Source: Candidatus Bathycorpusculum sp. (lineage in GTDB: Archaea > Thermoproteota > Bathyarchaeia > Bathyarchaeales > Bathycorpusculaceae). Taken from it: 64,000 nt of DNA. Location of the stretch: NCBI GenBank assembly GCA_009778385.1, contig WRJX01000104.1:120218-184217 (forward strand). The letters run 5' to 3'. Positions 46,697 to 61,267 of the stretch are shown in pieces; position 1 is the first letter of the stretch; the number at the start of each line of letters is the position of its first letter. Below the pieces are notes generated by a model. It was given only the letters and a program-made list of their open reading frames with translations, had not been told where the DNA came from and did no database searches. The translations under genes and the position numbers were made by a program.

Positions 46697-48106
46697 ATGA
46701 AAAAAATAATAATGAAATTCGGTGGAACCAGTGTTGGCACAGGCGAAAACATACGCCAAGTAGCTGACATAGTCACACAATACTCCAAAGAATACAGAAT
46801 CTCTGTTGTAGTTTCAGCTTTAGCAGGTGTTACAAACAAGCTTTTAGAAGTTGCCTGTCAAGCAAAGAATGGCGATGAAAAACTAGTCAAAAACGTCACT
46901 GATGAGCTGTTGCAAAAACACAGAGAAGCAGTTGTATCTGCAATAACAGGTAAACCATTACAAAAAGAAGTTAACCAAATAATAGAGGAAATTGTAGGGG
47001 AACTTGAAAAAGTTTTAACAGGCATCTGCTATGTAGGTGAATTAACACCTAAATCAAAAGATTACGTGGTCTCCTTTGGTGAGCGCTTATCAGCCCCAAT
47101 TGTTTGGGGTGCAATACGAGATCACAAACTTGAAACTCAATGTTTCACAGGCAAAGAAGCAGGAATTGTAACTGATTCCAACTTTGGTGATGCAGATCCT
47201 CTAATGAATTTCACCATGCATCTTGTACGTGAAAGACTTGGACCGCTTTTAGAAAAAGGCGTAACCCCCGTAGTTACAGGTTTTATTGCTGCGGACCAAA
47301 ATGGCATTGTAACCACTGTTGGACGTGGAGGCAGTGACTATACCGCAACTATTCTTGGTGTTGCATTAGAAGTTGACGAAGTTTGGATATGGACAGATGT
47401 TGACGGAATTATGACAACTGATCCAAAGCTTGTTTCTACAGCAAAACTGTTGCCACAACTCAGTTATCAAGAAGCTGCAGAAATGGCAATTTTTGGCGCA
47501 AAGGCCATGCACCCACGCGCGTTGGGACCAGTAAGTAAAGAAAATATTCCAGTTAGAATCCGCAATGCTTTCCATCCAGAAAACCCAGGCACGCTCATCA
47601 CTAAAGAACCAGTTGCAGATGCAAAACAAGCTGTTAAAGCTGTAGCTATGATAAAAGATGTAGCCATGCTTAACGTTAACGGCGCCGCAATGGTTGGCGC
47701 ACCCGGAAGCTATGCAAAAGTTTTCGATGTACTTGGCAAAAACAACATCAACGTTATGATGATATCTACAGCTGTTTCTGAAGCAAACATTTCAATGATA
47801 ATCAAACGCAATATACTTAGTAGAGCAATCAGCAACCTTGAAATCGCTCTTTTAGAACGCGGCGGACTAGTTAGTGAAGTAACAGCTGAAGATGATGTCG
47901 CCGTAATTGCAGTCATGGGAGCCTACATGAAAGGCACCCTAGGTATAGCATCAAAAATCTTTGCCACTGTAGCCAAAAAAGGCATAAACATTCGCATGAT
48001 TGCCCAAGGCAGCTCAGAGTTAAACATCAGCTTTGTCGTCAAAGAAAAAGACGCCATAGAAATTGTCAAAGCAATACACGAAGAATTCAACCTCGACAAA
48101 ACATAG
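46697..48106 (+). CDS. lysC: aspartate kinase with tandem ACT domains
   Basis: 469 residues. The amino-acid kinase domain starts MKKIIMKFGGTSVGTG and includes VVSALAGVTNKL, SFGERLSAPIV and GRGGSDYTATILG. Two ACT domains follow from about residue 320 (MLNVNGAAMVGAPG and VAVIAVMGAYMKG), the usual site for lysine or threonine feedback. It phosphorylates aspartate and is last in the thrB-thrC-hom-lysC run, supplying both this operon and the lysine genes at 12-18 kb. Confidence 0.96.
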   Translation: MKKIIMKFGGTSVGTGENIRQVADIVTQYSKEYRISVVVSALAGVTNKLLEVACQAKNGDEKLVKNVTDELLQKHREAVVSAITGKPLQKEVNQIIEEIVGELEKVLTGICYVGELTPKSKDYVVSFGERLSAPIVWGAIRDHKLETQCFTGKEAGIVTDSNFGDADPLMNFTMHLVRERLGPLLEKGVTPVVTGFIAADQNGIVTTVGRGGSDYTATILGVALEVDEVWIWTDVDGIMTTDPKLVSTAKLLPQLSYQEAAEMAIFGAKAMHPRALGPVSKENIPVRIRNAFHPENPGTLITKEPVADAKQAVKAVAMIKDVAMLNVNGAAMVGAPGSYAKVFDVLGKNNINVMMISTAVSEANISMIIKRNILSRAISNLEIALLERGGLVSEVTAEDDVAVIAVMGAYMKGTLGIASKIFATVAKKGINIRMIAQGSSELNISFVVKEKDAIEIVKAIHEEFNLDKT

Positions 48107-48376: not shown

Positions 48377-48415
48377 AACCTTAACTTGCCCCACAATTTT
48401 TGGGGCAAGACACGC
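48377..48415. repeat. direct repeat copy 1 with hairpin
   Basis: AACCTTAACTTG begins a 39-base element that recurs at 48939-48977 with about 80-85 percent identity. In this copy CTTGCCCCA (48385-48393) and TGGGGCAAG (48401-48409) form a nine-pair stem around CAATTTT, which would act as a terminator for convergent transcripts. Confidence 0.6.
48385..48409. terminator. stem-loop between convergent genes
   Basis: A perfect nine-base stem with a seven-base T-rich loop, just beyond the 103-residue membrane protein stop (48418) and 280 bases after lysC. Confidence 0.5.
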
Positions 48416-48729: not shown

Positions 48730-49194
48730 TAGGATTGCAATGTAGACTTTTTATGTTTTGGTATCTCTGCACTTTTAACGACACATAAAACGCATGTACC
48801 CCAAGAGGCAACCTCAAACATAGTAAGCCGTCAATTAAGAAGGAAATAACATTCCAGGATATGATAAAAGGTGAAAAAATTATAACCCTTTCAATTGTGT
48901 TTGTACTTGTGATCGGTAATTTTGCATCGGTAGTGCAAACCTTAACTTGACCCATAATTTTTGAGGGAAGAAAACGTTATGTTCAAAGAATTCCATGTTA
49001 ACCTCGTTTTTGAACACAATCAATGTGCCTATTCCAAGTGGATATTTGTGTGTACGCAGATTTCACTTAAAAAGCATCGCTAAACATTGTTCAGATCATT
49101 TAAGCGTTCTCCAAAAGCTACCTCATCAATCGCCAATAAAACTGACGGACAAAATGACTCTTTCCCCTTTAAACCTCCATTTGATGGCTTATCT
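48730..49194. other. 465-base spacer with repeat copy 2
   Basis: A minus-strand frame (48719-48955) and a plus-strand frame (48995-49198) exist but neither has a ribosome-binding site or family-like features. Repeat copy 2 is at 48939-48977. Confidence 0.4.
48939..48977. repeat. direct repeat copy 2, hairpin degraded
   Basis: AACCTTAACTTG is identical to copy 1 over its first 12 bases, then ACCCATAATTTTTGAGGGAAG replaces the paired CCCC/GGGG arms with substitutions on both sides, so the stem is weakened here. The spacing between copies is 562 bases, bracketing the small membrane gene. Confidence 0.55.
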
Positions 49195-51279: not shown

Positions 51280-51699
51280 CTAAGCGGAGAGCAATGTCAG
51301 GGTTGTTTTGGTTTGAACATATTTCTTGGCTTTATCTCTAAGACTTTGATCTTCGGTTATGAGCTGGATATTTTTTTGTTTAGAGAAATAAATATAACTT
51401 GAATCATAAAACGAGAGGTTTTCGGTTTTTGCTATTTTCATAATCTGCTGAAAAGTTACATCATGGTTTAGGATTTTTTCGGTTCTCGATAAAATAATTT
51501 GGGTAACTTTTTCTAATGTTTCTATCTCCTGAGGAGTTAAAAATTTGGTAAGACGATTTTCTTTTAAAAGTACATTACCTACCTCGTAAACAGTTAGGTC
51601 AAGAATAAATGATTTTTGAAGCTGCTGGAGAGTAGTTTGTACATTTGCTTTTTTGATTAAAAAGATGAATGCACTTGCGTCAAATAGGTATTGTTTCAT
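51280..51699 (-). CDS. vapC: VapC-type PIN-domain toxin
   Basis: 139 residues. FDASAFIFLIKK holds the first PIN aspartate; VYEVGNVLLKE, FYDSSYIYFSK and ITEDQSLRDKAKK hold the remaining acidic residues of the four-acid RNase site. VapC toxins cleave tRNA or rRNA to stop growth. It overlaps vapB by four bases (ATGA), as expected for a coupled toxin-antitoxin pair. Confidence 0.88.
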   Translation of the reverse strand: MKQYLFDASAFIFLIKKANVQTTLQQLQKSFILDLTVYEVGNVLLKENRLTKFLTPQEIETLEKVTQIILSRTEKILNHDVTFQQIMKIAKTENLSFYDSSYIYFSKQKNIQLITEDQSLRDKAKKYVQTKTTLTLLSA

Positions 51700-51920
51700 C
51701 TTTGGTCTCTTGAATCATATACGGTGGTTATGATTTCCGCGTCTGGAATTTTTTCAAGTACCAGTTTCATTTCATTTATTGCGTTAGATAGTTCAGCGTT
51801 TTCGATTTTACGAATTTCATCCTCTAGGGCGGTACGGACTGTTTCGCTGATGTTGATTTTGTGTTGGCGAATTTTGTCTTTTAGAGTTTTTTCCACTCGT
51901 ATGGTAATAATTTCTGACAT
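51696..51920 (-). CDS. vapB: VapB-type antitoxin
   Basis: 74 residues. The N-terminus SEIITIRVEKTLKDKIRQH is a ribbon-helix-helix DNA-binding segment, followed by NISETVRTALEDEIRKIENAE and a flexible tail that would wrap the toxin. It neutralises VapC and represses its own promoter. The ATG lies about 25 bases from a TATA box, so the message is probably leaderless. Confidence 0.85.
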   Translation of the reverse strand: MSEIITIRVEKTLKDKIRQHKINISETVRTALEDEIRKIENAELSNAINEMKLVLEKIPDAEIITTVYDSRDQR

Positions 51921-56200: not shown

Positions 56201-59200
56201 TTATTTTTCTGATTTGACATAGATTTCAATTTTTACCTGAGAAGGCACTGCTTGATTTATGAATTTTGAGAGGTCGCCTGTCCAACAAGGTTTAGAATTT
56301 GCAGTATATCCAACTGTTTGAGAAATTCCACGCCACAGAAGCGCTTTATCATAATCTTTTGCGTCTTGAGGCATGAATTCAAAAATTGAGCGGCTAGCGA
56401 TGATGACAAGTTTTTTCTTCATACGACTAATTGAGACATTTATACGGTTAAGATTTAGCAAGAAGTCACTTTCACCTCGGATATAGTCAGAATCGCTGAC
56501 AGTAGAACTAATTATTATAAAGTCTGCTTCCCCGCCTTGATAGCGTTCAACTGTGTCTACACGAGTTTCACTGTAACCTTCTGCAAGCATGTTTTTGAGC
56601 AAACCCTTTTGAGCATTGTGTGGAGTAATTATGCCAACTGTTTTAGGAGACACACAACGTACCAGCGTGTTAGCAATTAAAGCTTCAGTAAAGTTGGATT
56701 GAAAACTTTCTGTCTCATCATGCACGATAAGTACAAACACATTTTCAGGTTCAAACACTACGTCTAACCCGTCAGTTTTAGGTTTAGATAAAGTCAGTGT
56801 TTCTCGCTGATCAGAGCGGAAGTCAATTTGATCTTTTTCATAAACCCATTCTTTAAGAAAAGCTGCGACAACTGAGTGACATCTATGACTTTCACAAAGG
56901 CGTTCAGCGGGAATGTCTACAGGATTTGGACACTTTATCCGTTCGATTCCCAGATCCTCGTTACGTAGGAGGCGTAGGAAGTCCATTGCAGAAAGAAATG
57001 AGGCCATTTCTTCAAGGGTTCGGCGGTCTTCTTTTTCCCAATTATGAGAGACAATAGGAGACAGTTGACGATGATCACCTGCGATGAGAATTTGGCTACT
57101 TTTGGTCAGAAAACTTCCAGATAAAATGAGTTCGGGTAGACGCATCATACTTGCTTCATCAACGACTAGAAGGTCAAAGAAACCTTCTCCCCACGGGGGT
57201 TCGTTGCCGCCGATTTTTTTCATAAGCCCATACAAACTTGGTGGGGTTAGACATAAAATCAGTGGGTCAGCCGCGGATGGTTTAGGTGTTAGCGTTGTTT
57301 GATTCATTAAAATTCCTGTTAGTTCTTCAATGGTGTCTTTGTCTTCGTTATAGTTGATGTAGGTAACGCCGTCTATGGGTTCAGCTGAAGCAGTGTTGCT
57401 GCTTAGTACACGGAAGATCTGTAAATTTTTGAGGTCTTTACCATCTGTGCTAATGTATTCTTGCCAGCAGCGGGCAAGTTTAGTGACAAATTCTTGTATA
57501 GCCTTGTGAGTCGGTGCAACCATGAGTACGCGACATTTTGAGATGGCATGGTGAGCAGCAACATGAGATAGAACTGCCAGTTGCAAAGTTTCAGTCTTAC
57601 CGGTTCCAGGTGGGCCTTGAAGCATAACTATGGGTTCTTTGCCAAAAACGTGATCGACAAAACGGGCTTGTTCGGCTTTTGGTGGAAGGCGCCTGTTTGT
57701 CATCCAGTTAAGAAAGTGTGTAGCTCCAGTCATGGGTAGTGCAGTGTGTGTAGAGTTAGTGGTTTTTCCTGCCAAGTAATCTGTCAAAAGGAGGTAGAGC
57801 ATGTTATTGTTTGAGTAGTCAAGGCATTTTGCTGCCCTATCTGAGATGATGTCATCAGCTAGTTCGTCAAGGATGTAGTAGCGTCCTTTCTCGAAGAGTT
57901 GCATGTATTTGGCTTTGGCTTTTTCTGGGTTAGTTGTGGGCAGGTTGTGCCAGGCGCTGTATTTGCTGCCTTTGCCTCTTGGCCAACTTACTACTTTAAG
58001 GGTGATTTCAAATTTTTGTATGTCAACTTTGTTAACGATGGCCCGGGCGGATTTTTCGACTTCTGAGGGGGAACGTTTTTGGGCTTCTTCAAACTGGCCA
58101 GCTGAGTTTTTAGTAAGTTCTGTTACTACCATCCAGTCACCTGAGCTAGAGTCATCAGAACCTTTGACTCGGCAGGCGTTAGCTACGCAATCAGTTTTAG
58201 GCATCCCAATGCCTTCATAGATGAGTTTGCCGCAGACCGTAAATTCTTGTTCAGATTCAAATACGTTTGTGCACTGGAAAATTAAAGATCTACCAGATGC
58301 AACTCGCTGGTAAGGTAGCAATGCGTAGTGTTGGTACATTTCTTGTCGTTTAGAAAAGTATTCCAAGTCAAGAAATTCTCTGCAGCTTCGCTCAAGGGTT
58401 GAAGGCCCTAAAGAGAATTCGGCGATTGTTGGAACATCAATTGGTGCCTTTTTTAATCTGCGGTTGCGGATGGTTAGTGATCGCTCAATATGTTCAAGGG
58501 CCAGACAGATTTTTTGTCCCATGAGGTTAAGTTCTTCGTCAGTTATGCGACGAGTTTTTTGGGTGTAATCACACCATTTACGCTTTTCTAGTAGAATTTT
58601 GGCTTTACCTTTTTCATGATAATTTTCAAGTTTGCCTTTTGCCCCCCAGATATATTCAACGGGTAATTGGTTGCTAAATCGGGCGCGTGCGGGATAATAG
58701 CCGTCCTTTTGCACTATTTCGTCTCGCAGGAAAACGATGGAGCCGTCAGGATTTCTGTTAAAAGGTAGAGCATAATTGAACAGACCATCGCGGAAAACTA
58801 GACTTAAATCAACTGTAGTGTTGTCTTTTCGTTTGGTTGTCCAGTTTTTGCGATCAAAAAATGCTATTTGCTCAAGAATAGGCAGAAGACCATAGCTATG
58901 GAATTTGAGGGCTTTTCTATGGCGGACCTCATCTTGAAGAATTGAAAACATTGGTTGGTCAATTGCTTGTCTTAAACCTAGAAGGTCTCTTATTGCATTG
59001 GCGCTGATAAGTGAGGGATGGCGGCATACCGCTTTCATAAGGATGTCACGTTCTTGTCGGCTAAAGAAATACAGGTGCATGGGCGCTTTGCTGGAGTTAC
59101 CTGCTTCATTTGCAACTTTTTGAATTGCAATTGTTAAGTCTTTGAAGAAGGCTTCAAGCAAATCTTTTTCCTGATCAAGGCACGCTTGATGGTCATCGGG

Positions 59201-60553
59201 CAAGGCGCGAACGACTTGGGAGACGCTTGGAGGTTCACCACGGTACCGTGTACAGTTTACTCGTGCACTAATTAATGAGACTATATCAAGCATATAGTCC
59301 CATTCAACAAAGAGGTAAATGCGAATCATACTGTCAGGGCTAAACATTAGTGAGGTATCAACACCCATAGGAGGACTATCTTCTGGGAGACCACCATACC
59401 CAGTACTGGTTAACCATGGCATCCAACGGCTTTTACTTGCATAACAACTACCAGGACGAATTCCACTTAGCATATATTGAGCACGTTCAATTAACCAATC
59501 TAGTTTAGGACCAACGATTGGATCAGCAGATAATTCATAGACTTTTTGAGGATCATTAGCTGGGAGATTCTTGAAGTCATAAGGGCGCAAACTGTAGGTA
59601 TCAAATACTGGCTTAAGCCTTGCTAAGTCTTCAAGTTTTGAAATACCATAATACCTAAGAGTCTTCTGTTCACCTCGGCTTAGGTTAAGTAAAGCTATGT
59701 TTTCAGTTTCTACTGCACAAATGATACAGCATTCATTAAAGCCACAGTTGTCACAACTCAAACATAACTGAAACTCTACATGCTCCAATGGTGTTTGGTG
59801 AATGCGGTTTAATTCACCATTTTCGGCAAGTAGCCGTTCAACATCCTGAAGTAGCGGACTTAGCTTGAATTTGGGCAGACTTTCAGGGTTAAGGTTTTCA
59901 AGGCTTGTTTCACGGTTGATTACGCCGCCTTCAATTTCAACCTTAGATATTAAATCAGCAAGGACTTGGGAAAGCAGTATTGCATAAATTGCCACTTGAA
60001 TACGGTGGGTAGTCTGTTCTTTCCATGAAGCCTTGAGTTCAAAAATTCGTACAGTTACTTTTCCGTTTTTAATCGGCCAAATTGCGATTAAATCAGCTAT
60101 ACCAGTTATGTTCCACACTCCAATGGAGCCTTTCATAGGCACTTGATAGAGCAGTATAGTTCGGGTGCTAGTTTTTTCGTCTGTTAAGAGCTGTGTTTCA
60201 ATAATTTTGCGTAGTTCATTTAAAGAATCCACAGCTCTGTCCCAACCATGCTGATAAGGATCATACTTAGTAGCAAAGTCATGGTAATCAGTGGCTTTTT
60301 CTTGTAGTTCAGAAATTTTTTTTGCTTCAAATAATTTACCTGCACCATAAAGCAGAGGGCTAATAGGTTTGAAGGCTTCAGGCCATTTGCGTTTTTTTAA
60401 TTCTTTACCTTCAAATTTTAATTTAAAAAAGCGTGGACAACAGTTAAAACGAATATACTCCGCTATTCCTGAAGCTGTCAAAGAGTTACCGTTTTGATTT
60501 TCAGCCTCATCATCAAGATAAGAGAAATCTGCATCTATGTCTCCAGCGCTCAA
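56201..60553 (-). CDS. large fusion: Cas4/Dna2-like PD-(D/E)XK nuclease, RNase H-like region and SF1B helicase
   Basis: 1450 residues from TTG 60553 (GAGG nine bases upstream). The N-terminal nuclease domain is RecB/Cas4-like: NITGIADLI with Asp154, FELKASW with Glu172 and Lys174, and HRIQVAIY with Gln186 and Tyr190. Cysteines at 38-39, 264, 267, 270, 275-276 and 279 look like an iron-sulfur site. The region about 405-600 resembles the RNase H-like YprB domain of TM0106-type proteins but has lost the first Asp of DxE (LFVEWD). The C-terminal helicase has GPPGTGKT at 980-987, DEAS near 1132, GDHRQLSP and SISR near 1375 (UPF1/DNA2 group). It is monocistronic. A DNA-processing or defence role is possible; no known defence partner lies beside it. 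Confidence 0.85.
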   Translation of the reverse strand: MSAGDIDADFSYLDDEAENQNGNSLTASGIAEYIRFNCCPRFFKLKFEGKELKKRKWPEAFKPISPLLYGAGKLFEAKKISELQEKATDYHDFATKYDPYQHGWDRAVDSLNELRKIIETQLLTDEKTSTRTILLYQVPMKGSIGVWNITGIADLIAIWPIKNGKVTVRIFELKASWKEQTTHRIQVAIYAILLSQVLADLISKVEIEGGVINRETSLENLNPESLPKFKLSPLLQDVERLLAENGELNRIHQTPLEHVEFQLCLSCDNCGFNECCIICAVETENIALLNLSRGEQKTLRYYGISKLEDLARLKPVFDTYSLRPYDFKNLPANDPQKVYELSADPIVGPKLDWLIERAQYMLSGIRPGSCYASKSRWMPWLTSTGYGGLPEDSPPMGVDTSLMFSPDSMIRIYLFVEWDYMLDIVSLISARVNCTRYRGEPPSVSQVVRALPDDHQACLDQEKDLLEAFFKDLTIAIQKVANEAGNSSKAPMHLYFFSRQERDILMKAVCRHPSLISANAIRDLLGLRQAIDQPMFSILQDEVRHRKALKFHSYGLLPILEQIAFFDRKNWTTKRKDNTTVDLSLVFRDGLFNYALPFNRNPDGSIVFLRDEIVQKDGYYPARARFSNQLPVEYIWGAKGKLENYHEKGKAKILLEKRKWCDYTQKTRRITDEELNLMGQKICLALEHIERSLTIRNRRLKKAPIDVPTIAEFSLGPSTLERSCREFLDLEYFSKRQEMYQHYALLPYQRVASGRSLIFQCTNVFESEQEFTVCGKLIYEGIGMPKTDCVANACRVKGSDDSSSGDWMVVTELTKNSAGQFEEAQKRSPSEVEKSARAIVNKVDIQKFEITLKVVSWPRGKGSKYSAWHNLPTTNPEKAKAKYMQLFEKGRYYILDELADDIISDRAAKCLDYSNNNMLYLLLTDYLAGKTTNSTHTALPMTGATHFLNWMTNRRLPPKAEQARFVDHVFGKEPIVMLQGPPGTGKTETLQLAVLSHVAAHHAISKCRVLMVAPTHKAIQEFVTKLARCWQEYISTDGKDLKNLQIFRVLSSNTASAEPIDGVTYINYNEDKDTIEELTGILMNQTTLTPKPSAADPLILCLTPPSLYGLMKKIGGNEPPWGEGFFDLLVVDEASMMRLPELILSGSFLTKSSQILIAGDHRQLSPIVSHNWEKEDRRTLEEMASFLSAMDFLRLLRNEDLGIERIKCPNPVDIPAERLCESHRCHSVVAAFLKEWVYEKDQIDFRSDQRETLTLSKPKTDGLDVVFEPENVFVLIVHDETESFQSNFTEALIANTLVRCVSPKTVGIITPHNAQKGLLKNMLAEGYSETRVDTVERYQGGEADFIIISSTVSDSDYIRGESDFLLNLNRINVSISRMKKKLVIIASRSIFEFMPQDAKDYDKALLWRGISQTVGYTANSKPCWTGDLSKFINQAVPSQVKIEIYVKSEK

Positions 60554-60694: not shown

Positions 60695-61267
60695 ATGGCA
60701 AAACTAGCTAAACCCATAAAACAATTAACCCTTGACAGCCTTCCCGCCACATCCATAAAACAAGATACAAACACAAAACCGGCAGTCCAAAAGCAAATTC
60801 ATATAACCAAAATAGAAGCTACAACAAGAATTGACGAATTAGTCCTCAAAGTCAGTTTCAGGCTTGAACCATCTTGGCGAACATTTTCCAAAGTTAAAGC
60901 TGACCTGTTTTTTGAAGACACCCATATTAGTGCAGTTTCTATCCAAGTACTTCAAGGGCCCTTAGGAACAAACGAACTAGAGTACAGTTGGGTAATGGAT
61001 ACAAAAAACATAGCCAAAGGAACATACCACTTAAGAGTTGAAATGTATGAAGCGTGGTCTTCAGATGAAAGGTCATGTCAAACTATCCGTGAGATAACAG
61101 TAAACTATGTACCTAAAACACGGCAGGAACGCCTAATCAGAATTCCTATTGTGAAAAGTGTTACAGGCGCAGATATGGCAGTTATCTCAAACCAAGAAAA
61201 GCGTTTGTATTTGGACCTAGAAAAAGCAATGAAAAAAGAACAGTTAAGTCGACGGAACGACTTTTGA
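60695..61267 (+). CDS. hypothetical protein, unknown family
   Basis: 190 residues. The first 35 are Lys/Thr/Pro-rich and probably disordered; then a beta-sandwich-like segment of about 110 residues (IHITKIEATTRIDELVLKVSF, KADLFFEDTHISAVS, TYHLRVEMYEAW). The C-terminal 45 residues are helical and charged (NQEKRLYLDLEKAMKKEQ). I recognise no family; the sandwich recalls an Ig-like fold. It diverges from the nuclease-helicase, and the two promoters lie within 141 bases, so co-control is possible. Confidence 0.65.
   Translation: MAKLAKPIKQLTLDSLPATSIKQDTNTKPAVQKQIHITKIEATTRIDELVLKVSFRLEPSWRTFSKVKADLFFEDTHISAVSIQVLQGPLGTNELEYSWVMDTKNIAKGTYHLRVEMYEAWSSDERSCQTIREITVNYVPKTRQERLIRIPIVKSVTGADMAVISNQEKRLYLDLEKAMKKEQLSRRNDF

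Follow-up and report, generated by a model that had tools for sequence, protein, structure and literature searches.

A predicted archaeal nuclease-helicase with a modelled second nuclease-type fold in a variable chromosomal slot of Candidatus Bathycorpusculum

Introduction

Enzymes in which a helicase is fused to a nuclease are already known as a class, and the fate of DNA ends, repair or destruction, depends on them. In Dna2 (5eax, 5ean), an N-terminal RecB/Cas4-type nuclease with an iron-sulfur (Fe-S) site, a barrel and a superfamily 1B (SF1B) motor lie on a single chain. Some bacteria have a UPF1-type motor attached to a RecB-like nuclease of the TM0106 type. Mokosh includes a kinase domain in MkoA and a phospholipase D partner, and the motor of Hna belongs to superfamily 2. 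Fusions of a Cas4-like nuclease with a UvrD helicase are tied to defence in PMC5704561, as are Cas4-like genes found with YprA-type helicases, and PMC6299218 and PMC2743648 report prokaryotic Argonautes associated with Cas4-type nucleases and helicases. Archaeal defences are termed poorly characterised in a passage of PMC12988326. The present work concerns a gene for a nuclease-helicase at positions 56201..60553 of a 64,000-nucleotide stretch of DNA (hereafter the window) from Candidatus Bathycorpusculum sp. The window forms the terminal portion of contig C104 (WRJX01000104.1), in a 2.18 Mb genome of 105 contigs. New here are the prediction of a further nuclease fold, the broad but patchy spread of the protein's family, and the variable slot in which its gene lies.

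Domain organisation and comparison with known systems

The gene is on the minus strand, starts with TTG and encodes 1450 amino acids (aa) with a single terminal stop, and orthologues were found. The reading frame, for which an earlier note on the window gave no strand, is intact, and the plus strand of the same span reads with 79 stops. In all six orthologue pairs tested, the ratio of nonsynonymous to synonymous substitution rates (dN/dS) was 0.045-0.090, values that are rough because dS was 1.1-2.0; such ratios indicate that purifying selection on the gene is strong. In a scan for promoters and terminators, sites were no more frequent than in shuffled sequence.

Residues 20-290 (59684..60496; all coordinates within this gene refer to the minus strand) were assigned to a PD-(D/E)XK nuclease domain of the Cas4/Dna2/AdnAB/EXO5 type. 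The active-site residues Asp154, Glu172-x-Lys174, Gln186 and Tyr190 (59984..60094) are at the positions given in the earlier note and are conserved in 120/120 close relatives. The motif Asp...(D/E)-x-Lys...Gln-x3-Tyr, with Asp or Glu at 172, is retained in 98/98 rows of the wider alignment A4 (the window piece and 97 of 358 proteins; identities down to 24%); further alignments, A5 and A8, had 34 and 61 rows, respectively. By its residues, the Cas4/Dna2-type active site is thus complete. A nuclease fold of the Cas4/Dna2/AddB type, as the note had predicted for the N-terminal part, is present in AlphaFold models of the protein (predicted local distance difference test scores 91 and 92), and a profile search of nuclease alignment A3 against PDB sequences gave 0 matches. 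Nucleases of this type have one cysteine before the core and three after it. The same pattern was found here, each cysteine being present in 90-91 of 98 rows, and consists of Cys39 (60437..60439; 91/98) and Cys267-x2-Cys270-x5-Cys276 (59726..59755; 90, 91 and 90 of 98). The cluster noted earlier at 264-279 therefore holds for three widely conserved cysteines of the predicted Fe-S site, while Cys39 was missing from it.

The motor, of the UPF1/Dna2-type SF1B class, occupies residues 960-1400 (56354..57676), with Walker A at residues 980-987 (57593..57616). AAA_11 and AAA_12 scored over cut-off, chains of Dna2, SMUBP2 and UPF1 were matched, and the helicase motif residues are invariant in 34/34 aligned rows, which bears out the complete helicase described earlier. 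Among PDB sequences, the motor matches Dna2 best, with the phmmer match confined to residues 1114-1395.

Between these modules, residues 396-714 (58412..59368) are predicted to adopt an RNase H-like/DEDD-exonuclease fold in the AlphaFold model. Conserved acidic residues Asp419, Glu462, Glu501 (Glu or Asp) and Glu690 are present, with a spacing that is non-canonical in comparison with the DxE / D / (Y or H)xxxD motifs of DEDD enzymes; position 417 is mostly Gln (68/98). A profile search of the middle-domain alignment A7 against PDB sequences gave 0 matches. Strand-rich residues 757-897 (57863..58285; DSSP of the model) are likely the accessory barrel of the motor, corresponding to domain 1B of Dna2/UPF1. 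A structural match to Dna2 5eax spans model residues 23-899, but with a root-mean-square deviation of 24.3. Since residues 396-714 are predicted to carry a second nuclease-type fold, the protein would be more than a nuclease plus a helicase; both modules of the fusion proposed earlier were found, and the description was incomplete in this respect.

Besides Dna2, the motor is similar to SMUBP2, UPF1 and Sen1, and the middle fold also resembles RNA exonucleases. These likenesses would suit an RNA-processing helicase of the UPF1/SMUBP2 kind with nuclease domains acting on RNA or RNA-DNA hybrids, a role that we consider improbable. Dna2 and AddB nucleases act on DNA, which counts against it, as do the restriction and DNA-repair type genes that neighbour the plasmid relatives described below. 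Cas4 nucleases, too, are stated to act on DNA in a part of PMC5704561.

The protein shares the single-chain layout of Dna2 but differs in the extra RNase H/DEDD-type module between nuclease and barrel, and in its patchy accessory distribution. It also has a RecB-like nuclease in common with the TM0106 type, and 27/34 members of the present family match the corresponding model (TIGR03491) at E 0.01 or better. However, the window protein is not listed at E 0.1 and 0/21 genomes scored over the curated cut-off of 97.45 bits, so that it was not placed in that family. UvrD-Cas4-like fusions, which in the relevant section of PMC5704561 occur stand-alone or beside restriction-modification genes, likewise join a Cas4-like nuclease to a superfamily 1 helicase, whereas the present motor is of the UPF1/Dna2-type SF1B class, not UvrD, and is accompanied by the RNase H-like module; the word UPF1 is absent from the main text of that paper. 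The top Foldseek matches of the model of residues 1-960 were to the Argonaute-associated Cas4 protein ACE1 (9iac, 9iab), on which the literature search found no paper. Its chains of 266-269 residues are too short to include a helicase. The Argonaute link of ACE1 has a counterpart in three plasmid relatives of the nuclease-helicase that lie near a Piwi gene, but no Piwi scored over cut-off in 32 genomes of the window's genus. The best PADLOC match was Mokosh MkoA (E 1.9e-43), with which, as with Hna, the protein shares the idea of helicase-nuclease defence. The best-matching stretch, residues 1125-1400, nevertheless lies inside the motor, and neither the protein nor its scanned neighbours gave a Pfam match to a kinase or phospholipase D domain; hence, membership of Mokosh was rejected.

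Distribution of relatives

Among named genomes, 22 loci were found in Candidatus Bathycorpusculum and other Bathyarchaeia or Nitrososphaerota, with best segments 64-86% identical. In the phylum sample, residues 1-960 were matched in 17/398 genomes (the window's own included), all within one family. The full-length profile is matched somewhere in 59/90 genomes of the family sample, many by short motor pieces alone, and full-length or near full-length copies, as read from the match table, are present in 32 of the 90 and in 3 of 32 genera. These comprise 26/32 genomes of the window's genus (one copy split across two contigs), 4/7 in genus g24 and 2/4 in g25 (one cut); 0/47 genomes of the 29 other genera has such a copy.

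Outside this group, tblastn matched 133 plasmid records, nine of them with at least 80% query coverage at 27-34% identity (eight haloarchaeal and one from Chlorohelix, Chloroflexota), and a tenth record, also haloarchaeal, has 68% query coverage. Named matches in protein searches came from Halobacteria, Chloroflexota, Bacillota and Gaiellaceae. In a tree of 57 rows, labelled by the search that had found each row, the bacterial-query set and the Bathyarchaeial set are parted by a branch with support 100, and other sequences lie between them. No close relative of the window protein was found in viral contigs, where the scan with alignment A5 gave at least five loci that, among the matches listed, are motor pieces alone. 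Only 4 of 50,697 phage records match partially, in the motor part, and none covers 80%. As some relatives bear the database name 'bifunctional RecB family nuclease/DEAD/DEAH box helicase', the family is already annotated; the phrase 'bifunctional RecB family nuclease' is absent from the papers searched, and the literature search yielded no study of this family.

A housekeeping distribution beside replication genes, which the earlier note had held would speak against its reading, was not seen, the relatives being spread over Thermoproteota, Halobacteria and Chloroflexota and the gene lying in a variable slot in the genus. The same data bear on whether the protein could be a repair enzyme akin to Dna2 or AddAB, resecting broken ends of the cell's own DNA and helping or replacing HerA-NurA. 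This is possible, though on balance rather unlikely. The gene is common and conserved in the genus, Dna2 is the best sequence match of the motor, and the NurA model was found in 10/32 genus genomes, the window's own not among them, all of which agrees with repair. Yet the gene was not found in 29/32 genera of the family sample nor in 381/398 phylum genomes, and is therefore not a general resection enzyme. Moreover, the NurA matches are borderline and not complementary (3/6 gene-free genomes versus 7/26 with the gene, p 0.35), and NurA was dropped as a complementary gene. Separately, NurA in the genus appears either very diverged or partly lost, several of the ten scores being borderline.

Two further kinds of frame in the genus match the motor. 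One, of 1868-1928 residues, matches weakly and occurs in 28/32 genomes (e.g. G000:C77 and G000:C69); the other, of 876-878 residues, matches better and occurs in three.

Location in the chromosome

The left edge of the slot in the window is an aspartate kinase gene (46697..48106, plus strand); window and contig end together, and the lysK side is not on the contig. Five genomes of the window's genus (G006, G012, G016, G024 and G025) have the nuclease-helicase flanked by the aspK operon on one side and the lysK operon on the other, both on one contig, and one of the two operons is inverted in G006 and G025. The gene-free genomes G210 and G226 have aspartate kinase directly adjacent to lysK, as do G281 and G232, which carry the gene elsewhere; in G281, from another genus, 1.17 Mb of a single contig separates the gene from this junction. 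In gene-free G122, a single 228-aa frame lies at the junction. Gene-free members of the window's genus have different contents at this position: a few small genes in G005 and G004 (with a 690-aa thioredoxin-like protein in the latter), and approximately 28 kb in G013, where a 907-aa type IIG-like restriction-modification protein (L087:1880-4600) directly follows aspartate kinase. Because the junction is closed in some genomes and filled otherwise in gene-free members, the nuclease-helicase was most likely acquired into, and then retained in, an accessory slot flanked by operons for amino-acid biosynthesis, in agreement with the accessory placement noted earlier.

Neighbours were compared in 27 loci, some of which are cut by contig ends (L086, from a g25 genome, fell below the threshold), and none is constant, as expected for a protein noted as having no known partner. 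A cytosine methylase gene is near the nuclease-helicase in a few loci. When 137 neighbour proteins were scanned with PADLOC, the 25 of 138 families listed each matched one or two proteins, methylases and SNF2-type helicases being among them.

Neighbourhood of the plasmid relatives

Genes within 10 kb of each plasmid copy were counted under strict defence terms (Piwi, restriction endonuclease or HsdR, DNA methyltransferase, HNH, CBASS, Dnd). Such a gene is present in 6/10 plasmid stretches, namely a Piwi protein in L033, L034 and L035, an Mrr-type nuclease immediately downstream of the copy in L031 and L032, and an HNH nuclease in L040; none is in L036, L037, L038 or L039. The controls, stretches about opposite on the same 10 plasmids, gave 2/10 (L110, CBASS; L115, Dnd and HNH). 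Phospholipase D (L037) and PD-(D/E)XK (L039) were left out, and counting both would give 8/10; on the control side a UvrD helicase (L113), a MazF toxin (L114) and a PIN protein (L107) were left out. A second copy on one Haladaptatus plasmid adjoins dcm and a SacI-type nuclease. No cas1 or cas2 is annotated in the 11 plasmid stretches, nor is either among the matches listed (25 families) in the genus neighbour scan. Co-location with defence genes, which according to the earlier note would support a defence role, is hinted at on plasmids and weak in the window's own genus.

Some neighbours are of a repair type and favour resection of the cell's own ends. In L034 and L035, an RNase_H_2 protein adjoins a DEAD-box helicase, making an MrfA/MrfB-like pair; the L034 helicase, the one of the two that was scanned for domains, has an MrfA zinc domain. 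In L033, a calcineurin-type phosphoesterase adjoins an SMC-like ATPase, as in Mre11-Rad50.

The plasmid copies also raise the question of a helper in replication or maintenance of plasmids or integrated elements, later fixed on the genus chromosome. Relatives are on 10 plasmid records, one of them (L036) with genes for a DNA polymerase and a flap nuclease next to the copy, and integrases are near other copies. With a long vertical life on genus chromosomes, no constant element gene alongside, and no full-length copy found in phages or, among the matches listed, in viral contigs, such an origin seems quite unlikely.

One 269-kb haloarchaeal plasmid (NZ_CP119784.1) has two family copies (L037 and L105), with three genes annotated as tRNA-guanine transglycosylase near one of them.

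Proposed function

We tentatively propose that the nuclease-helicase is an accessory stand-alone enzyme, with a likely defensive use, that opens foreign or broken DNA from an end and degrades the strands so released. The SF1B motor would run 5'-3' on single-stranded DNA, as do Dna2 and other SF1B enzymes, and the four cysteines would hold an Fe-S cluster bracing the nuclease domain. The unwound strand could then be fed to the Cas4/Dna2-type nuclease and cut, while the DEDD-type domain may trim the opposite strand. DNA of invaders, and not breaks in the cell's own DNA, would be the main target. If defensive, the enzyme would add a single-protein system to archaea.

Several observations weigh against a defensive use. 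The gene is common in its genus (26/32), where copies are 65-83% identical to that of the window with dN/dS <0.1, and such conservation is unusual for a fast-turning defence gene. Most of the genus slot neighbours listed are not defence genes, and PADLOC has no dedicated family for the nuclease-helicase. Piwi matches occur in 3/32 genus genomes with 0 over cut-off, so the Argonaute link does not extend to the window's genus. On plasmids, the enrichment has a one-sided p of 0.085 (0.056 with the second copy), with categories fixed after viewing the lists; the MrfA/MrfB-like and Mre11/Rad50-like pairs are near some copies, that of L036 is among replication genes, and that of L038 has neither defence nor repair neighbours.

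Defence is nonetheless placed somewhat ahead of repair. A DNA end-processing or anti-element enzyme, as suggested in the earlier note, is still the best reading given the accessory locus and the absence of a constant neighbour, with the defence co-location suggestive at most. More speculatively, and with no great expectation, the family could be a one-gene anti-invader system common to archaea and Chloroflexota, in which a chain with two nuclease folds and a Dna2-type motor that loads on free ends would degrade both strands; on haloarchaeal plasmids it would carry out the destruction of DNA, with Argonaute or Mrr-type proteins as the sensors. As the family has cultured haloarchaeal hosts, the role is directly testable.

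Other features of the window

A divergent 190-aa protein is encoded next to the nuclease-helicase (60695..61267, plus strand) and has no Pfam match over cut-off. It is adjacent in 8/27 loci, occurs also in a gene-free genome, and has relatives in 25/32 genus genomes at up to four places per genome; it was therefore rejected as an obligate partner. The VapBC-like pair and MarR gene noted earlier were both recovered by Pfam. A PIN-domain toxin with a CcdA-like antitoxin is encoded at 51280-51920 (minus strand), and in 7 other loci this toxin is found again, downstream of the nuclease-helicase. Just past the aspartate kinase gene, a 34-base direct repeat is present in two copies (48377-48410 and 48938-48971) that are 561 bases apart and 88% alike.

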